Positions 7,774 to 59,700 of a stretch of DNA of 64,000 bases are shown here, in pieces (position 1 is the stretch's first letter; every line of letters begins with the position of its first letter). The position numbers were made by a program, and so were the translations under genes. Origin of the DNA: a virus; the IMG/VR virus record IMGVR_UViG_3300046727_000401, positions 1 through 64,000 of that record, one strand, 5' to 3'. Below the pieces are notes generated by a model. That model saw only the letters and a program-made list of their open reading frames with translations. It was not told the origin of the DNA and did not search any database.

Positions 7774-7947
7774 CTACGCGCCGTTCTTGCCCGCGCAGTA
7801 GCTCACGGTCACCTTGCCGCAGCACGGCCTGCTACACGCCTCATCGGCCGTCGTGGTGTACGTCGTGATGCCGCCGTTGACCTGGGCCGGCTCGACGCGC
7901 CGGAGCTCCTCGCGGTGCAGCGGGAGCTTGCCGGTCTTGCGCTTCAC
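7774..7947 (-). CDS. Lanthipeptide-like (RiPP) precursor peptide 1, 57 aa
   Basis: The 57-residue product has a basic N terminus and the core KLPLHREELRRV (residues 7-18), then VNGG at 23-26. This matches leaders of class I lanthipeptide-type precursors (L-x-L-x-R-E-x-L-R, Gly-Gly end). The tail has Thr at 28, 29, 31-33 and 47, Ser at 39 and 49, and Cys at 38, 42, 43 and 51, as needed for thioether rings. The GTG start overlaps the stop of the holin-like gene, so it is co-transcribed with it. No modifying enzyme is visible in the window. Two more peptides of this type lie at 36402 and 59548. Function (antimicrobial, signal or decoy substrate) is unknown. Confidence 0.65.
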   Translation of the reverse strand: MKRKTGKLPLHREELRRVEPAQVNGGITTYTTTADEACSRPCCGKVTVSYCAGKNGA

Positions 7948-8597
7948 AGGTCACCCGTGGATGTATGCCAGGTCGCGCCGCCGACCTTGCCGCGGAAGTC
8001 CTCGAGTTCGGCGCGGCCCGGTGGCGGCGCAGGGTTCGCGGCCAGCCCAGACGCCGCCGGCGAAATCGCCTTGGCCGCCGCGGCGACCATCTGGACGAGC
8101 GCGCACCCGCCGAGCGTCACGCCCTGCCCGATCGCGTCCGCCTCGACGCACCTCCAGTCGAGGCCGACCGGCGTCATGCATCTCAGCCGCTCTGCAGCGG
8201 TCAGGTTGACGACCGCGGCGAGGGTCGCGAGGTCGAGCCCGGGCGTTGTTCCGATCGCCGTGGCGGTGCAGTTGATCGCGGCGTGACCTGCGCTGGTCGC
8301 GACGGCGCTACGCTCGGCGGCCGTGCAGGCAGTCTGCGCGGTCCCGAGCGCGCCCACGAGCAGCAGCACGGCGGCGGTCTTCACCCAGCTGCGGTTGACC
8401 TGGTAGCCGAACGAACCCAACCACGCCGCGGCGATACCGGCGATGTTCAGCGCCGTGCTGTTCGTGAGTAGGCCGCTCGCGAAGACGAGCGTGAGCGCCA
8501 TCGCGGCGAGGTGCCCCCACCACTCGGTCGTCTTGTAGCCCGGCTTGGGCGGGGTAGGCGTGACTTGAACCTGTACGGGTACGCTGATGTCTGCCAT
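7944..8597 (-). CDS. Holin-like multi-span membrane protein
   Basis: A 217-residue protein with hydrophobic segments at about residues 29-45, 48-63 and 72-88, preceded by a short polar N terminus (TEWWGHLAAMAL), as in phage holins. The last about 125 residues are Ala-rich with several Cys and look extracytoplasmic. A lipobox-like QTAC follows the third span but does not fit well. The ATG has AAGGAG upstream, embedded in a hairpin at 8598-8616. It probably forms the lysis pore together with the distant endolysin. Confidence 0.6.
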   Translation of the reverse strand: MADISVPVQVQVTPTPPKPGYKTTEWWGHLAAMALTLVFASGLLTNSTALNIAGIAAAWLGSFGYQVNRSWVKTAAVLLLVGALGTAQTACTAAERSAVATSAGHAAINCTATAIGTTPGLDLATLAAVVNLTAAERLRCMTPVGLDWRCVEADAIGQGVTLGGCALVQMVAAAAKAISPAASGLAANPAPPPGRAELEDFRGKVGGATWHTSTGDL

Positions 8598-9044: not shown

Positions 9045-9072
9045 TGTTTACCGCAGTCCTACGTGATGTCAA
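9045..9072 (-). promoter_or_regulatory. Leaderless promoter
   Basis: TTGACA (complement of 9067-9072), 16-base spacer and TAAACA (9045-9050), seven bases before the ATG at 9037. The GCGGTAAAC element recurs upstream of the XRE gene at 60267. The -35 overlaps the end of the fibre gene. Confidence 0.75.
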
Positions 9073-12038
9073 GGCGGGTTCACGACGTCCGTGATCGTGA
9101 ACGCGCGTGGGGTGATCACGTGCGTCCGCTTGCCTGCGAGCACGAGCACGATGTCCAGCCAATAGAGGCCGGGGGTGATGTTCGTCTCGGCCGATGTGAA
9201 CCCGAACGACGCTCGCCCCTTGGTCGCCGGCGCGGTCTGGTCGAGCAGCACGACGGTGCCGGCCGCGAGAGACTTGGAGAGCGTCGGCGGGTCGGCTGCG
9301 CCGATCGCGGTCTTCACCTGGACCTCGAGCGCGGCAACCGAGGTCAGGTCGATCGGGGTATCAGTGTCGTCGGTGACGACGAGCACATAGTCCACATCGT
9401 CACCGCGGTACACGGTGAGCGGTCCTGAGAGCTCGATCATGTTCGGGCCTCCGTCCTGCAGTCGACCAAAGAGGGGGCTCCATGTGAGCGAGCCGGACAC
9501 CGGGCCGGTCGTGATGCCTACGGCGTGCCCGGAGATCGTGCCCGTCGCTGCGATCGCCGACGCACCAGCGGCGATCGCTCTGGCAGCCCCCGCGAATGCG
9601 CCGCTGCCGGCCAGCGCACCTGCGCCGGCTCCCGAGTTGAGCGCGGCGCTCGCCCCCGAGAGCCCCCCGACCCCGGCCAAGTCGCCGCTCGTGGCGATGA
9701 TCTGCGCACCGACACCCGCGATGCTGCCCGCACCGGCCACCGCGCCCACGCCCGCCGTGAGCTGCGCGCCAGCGCCCGCGATCGTGCCCGAGCCGGCCAG
9801 GCTTCCGGTGCCCGTGCCCGCCGCGCCCGCGGCGCCTGCCCCAGCGATCGCCCCCGATCCGGTGAAGTCGCCTGCCGTAGGCGCCGGCGATGCGCCGGTC
9901 GCCGCGATGGTGCCGCCGCCTTGCACTGCCGCCGCCCCGGCCGCCAAGCCGCCGCCGGCCGCTGCTAGCGCCCCGGTGCCCGCAAGTGCTGCCGCGCCGG
10001 CCGCGCTCGAGGTGCTGACCGCTGCGAGCGCACCGGTTCCCGCGAGCGCACCGATCCCGGTTGCGAGCTCTGCGCCGGTGCCGGCCATGTTCCCCGACCC
10101 CGAGAGCGCGCCGCCGCCTTGCACTGCCGCCGCGCCCACGCCGGCGAGCGCCCCCGATCCAGTCGCCGCGCCAGCAGCCGCGATCAGCGCGGCGCCGCCG
10201 CCGGCCAGGGCCCCGGCCCCCGTGAAACCGCTGGACCCCGAGCCGAGCGCGGCACCGTGCCCCGACATGTCTCCGGCCCCGGTGAAAGCGCCGGCCGGCG
10301 TGTCCAGCACGAGCAGGAAGTCGGTGTCCCCGGCGTTGTTGTTGGCCGGAGGCGTGAACACGTGGGTGCCCGTGTTTGCGATCACGCCGATCGCCGTGAA
10401 TGCGCTGTTCGTCGGATCGAACCACCGCGCCCGCGCCGAGGCCGCCATCGCGGTCATGGCCACGGTGATCGTGCCGGTGTGGTCGGGCGGGATGTACGCG
10501 AGCAGCAGATCGCCCTCGGGCGTCGCCGCCGCCGCGACGTAGGTCGTCGACTGCGGACTCGCCGTGCCGCCGCCCGCGGTGATCAGCGAGATCATGCCGC
10601 CGAGCCCCGAGGGTTTCAGGCGGTGCCACGGCAGCGTCTTCCACAGCGCAAACTGCCGAGCCGCATCGAGCCGGCCCTGCGTCGCAAGCAGCGTCGTCCA
10701 GTCCGTCCCTGGCGATCCCGTGTCAAATCTCCAGAGCTGCTCGTGGCCGTAGAACCCGCCCGCGACGCCGCCGAGGAACTGCCAGTAGGGATACTTGCGG
10801 AACGGTGCCGAGCCGCCGAACAGGTCGAGCTCATAGAAGTATTCCAGGCCGATCACGGGCTTCGTCGGAGAGGCCGCGAACCCGCGGCGCGCCAGCTCGG
10901 CCACCGACTCGTCGGCGTAGCACCCGTTCAGGTCGAACGACCCAGCGGCGAGCACCGTATCCGTCGACAGCGCCGGGCGATCCCAGTGCGCGGTGAACAG
11001 CAGCGACGCCTGACCGGCCACCGACTTGAGGCCGGCCATCAAGTTGCTCACGGCCGCCGATTCGGCGGTGCTGAGCGTCTGCGTGTTCGAGCCGTAGTCG
11101 CCGCCCATCACCCAAATGATGTTGGGGTACGCTTTCCACCGCGCCGCCATCCATGCGCCGTAATTCCACATCTTCGACTTGGCGGGATTCGCGAACGACT
11201 GCCCGGTGAACCCGCCAGCGCCCGTGACCGCGTCCCACACGACCATCTCGTTGAGCCAGCCCTCGTCGTTCCGGTGGAACCCGAGGTAGCCGGGCCAGAT
11301 CAGCACGATCAGCCCGCTGGCCAGCGCCGCGTTCAAGATCGTCTCGACCGTGGTCCAGTAGCTGTTGTTGATGAAGGTGCAGTCCGGAGCCTGATTGTTG
11401 ATGTTCGAGTAATTGTCGCTCGCGAACTGGCCCTGCGTACCCGCCGCGCCGGTGGTGCCATTCGGCGAGCCGGTGAACGTGGTCCCGTCCATCTTCTGCG
11501 TGAACGGCAGCAGGCCGCCGCGCTCCTTGGGCGGCTTGACCAGGGTGTAGTGGTGCTCCATCGCGTTCGAGCTGACCGCGTTGAACCCCTGCGAGACGAG
11601 CGTGGAGAAGTACGTGTTCAGGCTAGCAAGCGGGATGTCCTCGAACAGCGACCATGTGGTGTCGGCGCAGAGCAGAAACGGCGTCCCGTCGGGGTGCACG
11701 AGGTAGCGCCCGTTCGCCGACACGCTGACCGGGAAGGAGTTGTTCGAGACCCCTGCGAGCGCACCGACACCAGCGAGCGCTCCCGCGCCGCCCGCCAGCG
11801 ATGCGCCACCGCCGGCGAGTGCGCCGGAGCCGGTGAGGACGCCGACGCCCTGCCCGGCGCTCGTGGCGGCGAACGCTACAGATCCGGCGAACGTTCCGGC
11901 GCCCGCGACCCCGCCGACCCCGGCGCCAGCTATGTCGCCAGAGCCGGTGAACGCGCCGTCGCCCGCAGCGGCCGGGACCCCGCTGAGCGCGCCAGGTCGC
12001 CGCTGCTGCGGTAGCGGTGGGGGACGAAAGAGCGACAC
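9069..12038 (-). CDS. Tail fibre with apiosidase-like (DUF4038) glycosidase between Gly/Ala repeat arms
   Basis: A 989-residue protein. Residues about 25-97 and 585-860 are Gly/Ala/Ser repeats of the type GxGALAG. Residues about 102-480 resemble the apiosidase-like DUF4038 glycoside hydrolase domain (LLCADTTWSLFED, NIIWVMGGD ending at 314, GLEYFYE with E399). They are followed by a beta domain like the putative collagen-binding partner of that family (AYIPPDHTG, ARARWFDP, about 480-580). The last about 115 residues form an Ig-like domain similar to phage baseplate or fibre attachment modules. It probably degrades host surface polysaccharide during adsorption. GTG start at 12038. Confidence 0.75.
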   Translation of the reverse strand: MSLFRPPPLPQQRRPGALSGVPAAAGDGAFTGSGDIAGAGVGGVAGAGTFAGSVAFAATSAGQGVGVLTGSGALAGGGASLAGGAGALAGVGALAGVSNNSFPVSVSANGRYLVHPDGTPFLLCADTTWSLFEDIPLASLNTYFSTLVSQGFNAVSSNAMEHHYTLVKPPKERGGLLPFTQKMDGTTFTGSPNGTTGAAGTQGQFASDNYSNINNQAPDCTFINNSYWTTVETILNAALASGLIVLIWPGYLGFHRNDEGWLNEMVVWDAVTGAGGFTGQSFANPAKSKMWNYGAWMAARWKAYPNIIWVMGGDYGSNTQTLSTAESAAVSNLMAGLKSVAGQASLLFTAHWDRPALSTDTVLAAGSFDLNGCYADESVAELARRGFAASPTKPVIGLEYFYELDLFGGSAPFRKYPYWQFLGGVAGGFYGHEQLWRFDTGSPGTDWTTLLATQGRLDAARQFALWKTLPWHRLKPSGLGGMISLITAGGGTASPQSTTYVAAAATPEGDLLLAYIPPDHTGTITVAMTAMAASARARWFDPTNSAFTAIGVIANTGTHVFTPPANNNAGDTDFLLVLDTPAGAFTGAGDMSGHGAALGSGSSGFTGAGALAGGGAALIAAAGAATGSGALAGVGAAAVQGGGALSGSGNMAGTGAELATGIGALAGTGALAAVSTSSAAGAAALAGTGALAAAGGGLAAGAAAVQGGGTIAATGASPAPTAGDFTGSGAIAGAGAAGAAGTGTGSLAGSGTIAGAGAQLTAGVGAVAGAGSIAGVGAQIIATSGDLAGVGGLSGASAALNSGAGAGALAGSGAFAGAARAIAAGASAIAATGTISGHAVGITTGPVSGSLTWSPLFGRLQDGGPNMIELSGPLTVYRGDDVDYVLVVTDDTDTPIDLTSVAALEVQVKTAIGAADPPTLSKSLAAGTVVLLDQTAPATKGRASFGFTSAETNITPGLYWLDIVLVLAGKRTHVITPRAFTITDVVNPP
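9498..10300 (-). repeat. Degenerate Gly/Ala-coding repeat, C-terminal fibre arm
   Basis: Tandem short imperfect repeats encode Gly-x-Gly-Ala-Leu-Ala-Gly type units with variable length. Repeat units differ at third positions, so they are selected as protein and are not a recent DNA expansion. Confidence 0.8.
11740..11970 (-). repeat. Degenerate Gly/Ala-coding repeat, N-terminal fibre arm
   Basis: The same repeat type as at 9498-10300, encoding about residues 25-97 of the fibre. The two arms flank the glycosidase. Confidence 0.8.
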
Positions 12039-36282: not shown

Positions 36283-36357
<75 letters not shown>

Positions 36358-36389: not shown

Positions 36390-36395
36390 TACGGT
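36390..36395 (+). promoter_or_regulatory. Putative -10 box of precursor peptide 2
   Basis: TACGGT ends six bases before the ATG at 36402. No good -35 is visible. Confidence 0.4.
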
Positions 36396-36401
36396 CGCGG
36401 C

Positions 36402-36593
36402 ATGAAGCAAACGAGCAAGCGGGTACTGAAGCTGTCGCGTGAGAGCGTGCGCGTGCTGTCGAGCCGGCAGCTGGCCGGAGCCGGCGGTGGGTTCATCCCC
36501 GATCCAACCACCGCGGCCACGGACGGGAACAACGGGTGCCCCAGCGAGGCGACCGGATGCCACACCGGCCTGAGCGGCTGCGGAAGCTGCTGA
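36402..36593 (+). CDS. Lanthipeptide-like (RiPP) precursor peptide 2, 63 aa
   Basis: The leader (residues 1-30) is basic and contains VLKLSRESVRVL and ends AGAGGG, matching the L-x-L-x-R-E-[ST]-[LIV]-R leader core of class I lanthipeptide-type precursors. The 33-residue tail has Thr at 36, 37, 40, 51 and 55, Ser at 48, 58 and 62, and Cys at 46, 53, 60 and 63. It has the Gly-Cys spacing expected of a ring-forming peptide. It is a single gene with a leaderless start. No synthetase or transporter is nearby. The peptide resembles those at 7774 and 59548. Confidence 0.7.
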   Translation: MKQTSKRVLKLSRESVRVLSSRQLAGAGGGFIPDPTTAATDGNNGCPSEATGCHTGLSGCGSC

Positions 36594-36650: not shown

Positions 36651-36839
36651 ATGACCGTCATCGAACTACAGACCAAACTGACCGCGCTGGTCGCGGCGGA
36701 TCCCAGCGTTGCCGACCTCGATGTCTGGATGAACGCTGATGGCAGAACGTGGACCACCAGCGAGGTGAGCCTCGTCGAGCTCGATCCGGGGCAACGCGCG
36801 CGCGTCACGCGGTTCGACCGCACCGTCGAGATCGGTTAG
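36651..36839 (+). CDS. Small hypothetical protein, 62 aa
   Basis: An alpha/beta sequence (MTVIELQTKLTALVAADPSV, DLDVWMNADG) resembling small proteins annotated in other phages without function. Leaderless start. Its stop lies three bases inside the convergent scaffold gene. Confidence 0.65.
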   Translation: MTVIELQTKLTALVAADPSVADLDVWMNADGRTWTTSEVSLVELDPGQRARVTRFDRTVEIG

Positions 36840-43620: not shown

Positions 43621-43989
43621 TCAGCCCGCGATCTTGACCACGTCCATCATGTCGGTGCGAGACGAGCGCTCGCGGAGCTGGGCCGTGACCTTGACGTCAC
43701 CCTGCCTGGTCGGCTCGTCGAAGGTCTCTTCGCGCAGCTGGCGCTTGAGCTGGTCGATCCGGACCAACGCCGCCGCGAGCGAGCGCTCCGCCACCGCAGC
43801 CCGGGACTCGGCGATCGCCAGCTCCACCAGGGCCGCCGCCGCCGTGTCGCTGATCAGCGCGAGGTGCGGCGCCAGGTGCTTGTGGCAGACCTCGGCCCCA
43901 CGCTGGGCCAGGCGCAACAGGCGACCGCGGGACCGCGAATCCGCGGGGAGGCGATTCGGGATGGGCCCGACTTTGGTTCCGGTGCTCAT
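43621..43989 (-). CDS. Helical hypothetical protein, 122 aa
   Basis: Ala/Leu/Arg-rich with coiled-coil potential (residues about 50-95) and no Cys cluster beyond one CHKH. The ATG overlaps the stop of the upstream lipoprotein gene (ATGA). No family is recognised. Confidence 0.6.
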   Translation of the reverse strand: MSTGTKVGPIPNRLPADSRSRGRLLRLAQRGAEVCHKHLAPHLALISDTAAAALVELAIAESRAAVAERSLAAALVRIDQLKRQLREETFDEPTRQGDVKVTAQLRERSSRTDMMDVVKIAG

Positions 43990-44333
43990 CGCCAGTCCGC
44001 GCAGTAGCCGAGGTGGCAGATCGGCTGGTCGGTCCCGGCCGGGCACGTGTACGAGTGCTGGCACACGGCGGCGGAGTCGAGGCACATCGTCTGACACGCC
44101 TGGTCCCCGAGGCCGAACAGCAGCGTCGGGTCGCAGTTCGAGGTGACCGACGAGCATCGATTGACGGGCGCCCCGCCGCCCCCGCCGCCCCCTCCGTCGC
44201 AGTAGATCGGGTTGCCGTCGTCGTCGTAGTCGCACGGCACCTGCAGCGCCTGCGTGCTGTCGGACGTGGACGGTGCCATGTTGACCGCGCAGGCCACCGT
44301 TGCGCATATCAGGAACAGGATCGTCGCTCTCAT
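43986..44333 (-). CDS. Cys-rich lipoprotein with poly-Gly linker, 115 aa
   Basis: Signal peptide with TVAC (Cys 15), a mature domain with about twelve cysteines and a run of eight glycines near residues 48-55. It resembles the plus-strand lipoproteins at 13744 and 17510, but here lies within a minus-strand operon, coupled to genes on both sides by ATGA overlaps. Probably a surface-exposed moron product. Confidence 0.7.
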   Translation of the reverse strand: MRATILFLICATVACAVNMAPSTSDSTQALQVPCDYDDDGNPIYCDGGGGGGGGAPVNRCSSVTSNCDPTLLFGLGDQACQTMCLDSAAVCQHSYTCPAGTDQPICHLGYCADWR

Positions 44334-59535: not shown

Positions 59536-59541
59536 TACCGT
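59536..59541 (+). promoter_or_regulatory. Putative -10 box of precursor peptide 3
   Basis: TACCGT ends six bases before the ATG at 59548, as at the gene at 42448. No clear -35. Confidence 0.4.
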
Positions 59542-59547
59542 GGGACT

Positions 59548-59700
59548 ATGAAGCGCCAACCCACACGTCTCCGCCTCAACCGCGAATCCATCCGCTCCTT
59601 GGCAGCATCTGACCTGCAGGTCGCCGCTGGGCTGCTGTTCTCCAACCCCGTCATAAGCTGCGACAGCTGCACAGGCTGCGGGTGCAAGCCGCCGGGGTAG
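59548..59700 (+). CDS. Lanthipeptide-like (RiPP) precursor peptide 3, 50 aa
   Basis: A 50-residue peptide with leader core RLRLNRESIRSL (7-18) and an AAG end near 26-28. The 22-residue tail has Ser at 32, 37 and 40, Thr at 42 and Cys at 38, 41, 44 and 46 (SCDSCTGCGC). The leader is the closest of the three to class I lanthipeptide-type leaders. Leaderless start. The stop lies one base before the convergent gene end. The promoter region is shared with the ribbon-helix-helix gene on the other strand. No processing enzyme is visible. Confidence 0.7.
   Translation: MKRQPTRLRLNRESIRSLAASDLQVAAGLLFSNPVISCDSCTGCGCKPPG

Follow-up and report, generated by a model that had tools for sequence, protein, structure and literature searches.

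Why would a phage carry three small genes for what look like lanthipeptide precursors, with no enzyme to modify the products? The question is posed by IMG/VR virus record IMGVR_UViG_3300046727_000401, of which 64,000 of 64,781 bases were analysed here (the window). The phage comes from soil, and its three genes, referred to as copies 1 to 3, each encode a leader followed by a Cys/Ser/Thr core. We consider it probable that they are orphan class I lanthipeptide-type precursors, matured in trans by host enzymes, and that the product benefits the phage.

Three precursor-like genes without enzymes

The genes and their predicted peptides are as follows.

7774 to 7947, minus strand: copy 1, 57 amino acids, GTG start; leader up to NGG, predicted core ITTYTTTADEACSRPCCGKVTVSYCAGKNGA
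36402 to 36593, plus strand: copy 2, 63 amino acids, ATG start; leader MKQTSKRVLKLSRESVRVLSSRQLAGAGGG, predicted core FIPDPTTAATDGNNGCPSEATGCHTGLSGCGSC
59548 to 59700, plus strand: copy 3, 50 amino acids, ATG start; leader MKRQPTRLRLNRESIRSLAASDLQVAAG, predicted core LLFSNPVISCDSCTGCGCKPPG

A check of the open reading frames (ORFs) reproduced the positions, lengths and leader motifs given in an initial annotation of this DNA, and a residue count agreed with its statement that each tail holds exactly four Cys. All four lie within the predicted C-terminal core, the leaders of all three copies are free of Cys, and each core has four to eight Ser/Thr residues. The peptides share the leader motif LxLxRE[S/T/E]xRxL, with the core after the leader; the leader ends in GG in copies 1 and 2, whereas that of copy 3 reads AAG in the window and AAAGG in its relative. 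While the leader motif is common, the cores differ and their Cys spacing varies from copy to copy. The loci had been described as unlinked and spread over 52 kb; because the map is circularly permuted relative to that of a related phage contig (G001), the spread becomes circular gaps of about 28, 23 and 13 kb. G001 joins both record ends with about 120 nt in between, and the record is therefore near complete. No LanB, LanC, LanM or C39 peptidase/transporter was found among the phage proteins scanned, as the initial annotation had also noted; the modification and export genes that a phage-borne cluster of the sublancin type has for ribosomally synthesized and post-translationally modified peptides (RiPPs) were not found among these proteins.

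The leaders resemble those of precursors in LanB/LanC clusters

The expectation that the peptides would match a RiPP leader profile held only through intermediate sequences: NF038153, the model of the class I lanthipeptide L1a leader, matched no phage ORF at E values up to 10, the three peptides falling below its reporting range. A hidden Markov model (HMM) built from bacterial precursors, by contrast, placed the three peptides at ranks 1 to 3 of 1041 phage ORFs (E = 4e-11 for copy 2, 1.2e-9 for copy 3 and 8.4e-7 for copy 1). They again came out on top of the 1041 ORFs with an HMM made from five bacterial LanB/LanC-linked precursors, whose location beside these enzymes is independent of the phage profile (E = 1.5e-9, 1.3e-8 and 1.5e-4; next ORF, 0.3), and in a control with 20 shuffles of every phage ORF the best E value was 0.04. 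The three peptides are thus homologous to precursors encoded beside LanB and LanC, and the combination of a core with Cys and Ser/Thr and a leader without Cys is found in all of them; LanB and LanC in the same cluster are found neither in the phage nor for most relatives in the bacterial genome G007 described below. The proposal that the leaders are of class I lanthipeptide type is supported through these bacterial relatives. With such leaders present and the enzymes not found in the phage, the further suggestion that host enzymes would be used in trans gains support as the natural reading.

Selection on the cores and the probable role of the finished peptide

Related phage contigs retain the genes in different combinations, copy 2 in G001, G002 and G003, copy 1 in G001 and G004, and copy 3 in G004. 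All three cores are under purifying selection: comparison with G001 gave 10 synonymous and 0 nonsynonymous changes in the core of copy 2 (Fisher P = 1.6e-7) and 12 and 3 in that of copy 1 (P = 7e-7), comparison with G004 gave 11 and 3 in that of copy 3 (P = 1.4e-6), and none of the Cys, Ser or Thr residues in the cores differs in the relatives' copies. The leader of copy 2, with 1 synonymous and 3 nonsynonymous changes relative to G001, is not the constrained part. Since the genes are conserved in relatives, their cores are under purifying selection and the bacterial HMM ranks exactly these three ORFs first, we do not regard them as chance ORFs.

Because the cores are under selection, it is the finished peptide that should benefit the phage. 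The phage carries the precursors as scattered small genes, and no modifying enzyme was found with them. During infection the leader would be bound by the LanB dehydratase and LanC cyclase of the host, through which Ser/Thr residues would be dehydrated and thioether rings formed in the core; cleavage behind GG, by a C39 transporter or a protease of the host, would then free the core of its leader. The finished peptide, made during infection, would most likely serve as an effector directed at the host cell or at competitors. As no integrase was found among the phage proteins scanned, the peptide is more likely to act in the course of lytic infection than through lysogenic conversion.

An alternative interpretation is that the leaders act as decoys, occupying host LanB/LanC and blocking the maturation of host (possibly anti-phage) lanthipeptides, with the core incidental. 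Anti-phage class I lanthipeptides do exist in Streptomyces (PMC12360287; PMC12715929), which makes a counter-defence role of the peptides possible, and the phage does supply leaders without enzymes. We nevertheless consider a pure synthetase decoy unlikely because the core is constrained in every copy and the leader of copy 2 is not, and because three different cores would be needless; the earlier idea of an inhibitor that occupies the synthetase is weakened by the first of these points.

Relatives in precursor-rich soil Acidobacteriota

The bacterial relatives found are all Acidobacteriota, the phyla searched genome by genome being Acidobacteriota and Actinomycetota with 396 genomes each. The stringent leader pattern led, in the bacterial collection, to an Acidobacteriota metagenome-assembled genome (L024, titled Thermoanaerobaculum sp.) and to one spurious site. 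Applied to the genome of L024, here G007, the phage profile picks up about 45 peptides at scattered sites (best E = 7e-8), and NF038153 matches 25 of the 26 that were taken (best E = 7.9e-8). G007 encodes three LanB and 16 LanC-like domains, and its family comprises four genomes, in which 53, 44, 33 and 11 such peptides were counted. By coordinates, a LanB is found within 10 kb of only 2 of the 53 peptides in G007. Precursors at a distance from the enzyme genes are therefore usual in this genome, and in some soil bacteria LanB/LanC appear to act on dozens of scattered precursors. The genomes of this family (loci L041-L060 and L093-L102) are those of soil Acidobacteriota in which few LanB stand alongside 11 to 53 class I-type precursor genes at scattered sites, and no description of Acidobacteriota genomes with such scattered precursors was found in the literature searched.

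Counts from the large genome searches, in which 16 candidates per genome were scored, are lower bounds. Across the 396 Acidobacteriota genomes, the phage profile had matches in at least five, one of which (G022) was rejected on inspection as false since it resembles sigma-70 region 4 within an 802-codon frame. All three genuine match genomes besides G007 encode LanB, compared with 42 of the 396 overall (about 0.001 by simple counting), and in G376 and G059 the match belongs to a cluster that also encodes LanC and LanB, together with a C39-ABC transporter and HlyD-like or GAF proteins. Other candidates did not hold: the single match in the 396 Actinomycetota genomes lacks a leader and was judged to be chance, a pattern match in Solirubrobacterales (L025) lies inside a longer reading frame, and a phage-only alignment scan of bacterial genome contigs gave 32 pattern matches, of which none was confirmed.

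These relatives also bear on a second alternative, namely that the phage peptides share this ancestry and have a GG leader, but are either substrates of a radical SAM enzyme or exported unmodified through a C39 transporter. C39 transporters do accompany the relatives, and TIGR04149, the radical-SAM-modified GG family, matches 4 of the 26 relatives, although none of the three phage peptides; the lanthipeptide leader model, however, matches 25 of 26, and the nearest clusters contain LanB and LanC, so that we give this alternative only a small probability. The same full-leader similarity, specific to LanB/LanC-linked precursors, makes it highly improbable that the genes encode small structural, zinc-binding or regulatory phage proteins with no relation to RiPPs; such proteins would be in keeping with the absence of a family match of their own and with four Cys that could bind zinc, but not with Cys spacing and cores that differ between copies under a common leader motif.

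Several points weigh against orphan class I precursors matured by the host. The three peptides have no direct family match, whether to NF038153, Pfam or any NCBIfam model; the five cluster-linked precursors had originally been found with the phage profile, so the HMM test made from them is not fully independent; the leaders are also like some radical-SAM RiPP leaders, as the TIGR04149 matches indicate; and the leader of copy 3 ends in AAG in the window instead of GG. No synthetase lies beside the precursors, and a matching LanB would have to be present in the infected cells. That no integrase was found, finally, makes the role of a lysogen-borne bacteriocin less likely.

Three comparisons bear on the host: the GC content of G007 equals that of the phage (67%), the phage terminase has relatives in Acidobacteriota at no more than 27-49% identity, and tetranucleotide correlation is non-discriminating (0.66 with G007, 0.68 with an actinomycete).

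Similar peptides in other phages

Among 2.9 million viral contigs, the stringent leader pattern occurred in this phage group only, while 30 viral contigs matched a looser L1a pattern, about nine of them with such peptides. Similar peptides thereby came to light in about six other phage lineages, whose contigs were read in part. L134, a distant relative of the present phage (43-50% identity in early genes), has its peptide beside a helicase loader; the 118.7-kb contig L138 has three precursor-like peptides within about 5 kb, near lysis genes that include an endolysin; L137 and L158 carry such a peptide, with a baseplate gene in L158; and further peptide-bearing contigs encode a weak match to a tape-measure protein (L141), a portal (L142) or RecT (L153). 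NF038153 at E values up to 1 matches 7 of 11 phage-borne members (best E = 5.8e-5), and an HMM built from the other phages' peptides again ranks the window's three first. No LanB or LanC was found in 34 flanking ORFs of the other phages, among the matches listed (25 of 35 families). Tentatively, then, orphan lanthipeptide precursors may be a recurrent phage strategy in about seven lineages, providing substrates for a promiscuous lanthionine synthetase of precursor-rich soil hosts, with effectors as the result.

Three candidates were set aside: L139 has phage-like genes on the contig, but the ORF itself, rich in arginine, runs antisense to a tail gene and was judged to be chance, and the peptides of L140 and L152 scored well but are incomplete in the stretch examined. 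Nine viral-contig loci with LanB relatives (L161-L169) lie mostly on contigs from isolate genomes, and no peptide of this precursor family was found near them in the stretches examined. A precursor-like gene stands directly beside a Ser/Thr protein kinase gene both in phage contig L137 (3551-7298) and in the bacterium L024 (3806-6830).

Gene starts and neighbouring genes

The surroundings of the three genes contain the following features.

36390 to 36395, plus strand: -10-like box TACGGT at a spacing of exactly 6 nt from the ATG of copy 2; start of the leaderless type
59536 to 59541, plus strand: -10-like box TACCGT at a spacing of exactly 6 nt from the ATG of copy 3
Gene starts including 4747, 36241, 36651, 39825, 42448 and 61533: start module GCTANNN[TA]N6ATG, extended -10, leaderless-type
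7944 to 8597, minus strand: gene upstream of copy 1, 217 amino acids, membrane segment; no PHROG match
36283 to 36357, minus strand: tRNA-Met(CAU), divergent from copy 2

At copies 2 and 3 the ATG is preceded by a TANNNT box at 6 nt and not by a Shine-Dalgarno sequence, and both genes are predicted to have their own leaderless-type promoters. The module GCTANNN[TA]N6ATG, whose pattern is as expected of leaderless transcripts, occurs at 15 sites in the phage compared with 0.67 expected, mostly at gene starts, and at 13 sites in G001; no enrichment was found in the Acidobacteriota genome G007, which uses Shine-Dalgarno starts, and the module may serve as an aid to host identification. The stop codon of the 217-amino-acid gene and the GTG of copy 1, which follows it, lie in a 4-nt overlap (GTGA), and copy 1 is predicted to be translationally coupled to that gene.

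Copy 2 and tRNA-Met lie together in a conserved block some 410 nt long whose flanks on either side are not alignable, and the slot of copy 3 is occupied in G001 by an unrelated small-membrane-protein cassette. Both would thus behave like single-gene 'moron' cassettes, which seem to move between slots. The small gene adjoining copy 2 (window 36651-36839) is found in G003 at 1220-1434, beside the portal gene. The least probable reading, that these are recently captured host genes of no benefit to the phage and on their way to loss, could draw on the 11 to 53 scattered precursor genes per relative genome, which would make capture easy, and on the replacement of copy 3 in G001, but is opposed by purifying selection on three cores, start modules of the phage type at copies 2 and 3, the keeping of three copies in a 65-kb genome and recurrence in other phages.

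The window further encodes a terminase, a portal, a Mu-F-like head protein, a major head protein, and baseplate and sheath-initiator proteins, structural proteins from which we judge the phage to be contractile-tailed, as well as a GH25 endolysin, a RecE-like nuclease and a DNA methylase. A fibre-like protein (9069-12038) with apiosidase-like and collagen-binding-type domains and another tail-region protein with a SASA esterase-like domain are possible polysaccharide-degrading receptor-binding proteins, to go by their domains. The 115-amino-acid product of 43986-44333 contains 12 Cys, has an N-terminus like that of a lipoprotein and is unrelated to the three precursor peptides.

Relation to known systems and significance

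The L1a precursors of NF038153 have, like the phage peptides, a leader of the form MKK..KLxLxRETLRxL....L....GG followed by a Cys/Ser/Thr core; the phage peptides differ in lying below the model's reporting range and having no enzymes nearby. In the prochlorosin system, one LanM serves many scattered ProcA precursors; the G007 family resembles it in its many unlinked precursors (11 to 53 per genome) and few synthetases, whereas prochlorosins are class II and the leaders described here are class I-type and in part on phages. Sublancin, a ribosomal modified peptide of the Bacillus prophage SP-beta, is likewise encoded on a phage (modification being predicted in our case), but with its whole cluster of enzymes on the prophage, whereas here only precursors and no integrase were found. 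Other phage-borne biosynthetic clusters are covered by Dragos et al. 2021, as cited in PMC11915812. The anti-phage lanthipeptides of Streptomyces link class I lanthipeptides with phage infection (PMC12360287), although there the host encodes the peptide against the phage, whereas here the precursor is encoded by the phage. No description of phage-borne orphan class I lanthipeptide precursors was found in the literature searched, which leaves most subscription journals and preprints outside.

The finding offers ready pairs of substrate and enzyme for co-expression, and it draws attention to bacterial genomes in which 11 to 53 class I-type precursors lie scattered, a class I counterpart of the prochlorosin arrangement. 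If the reading of the three genes as orphan precursors is true, phages would use host secondary metabolism by bringing the substrate gene alone and borrowing the enzymes.
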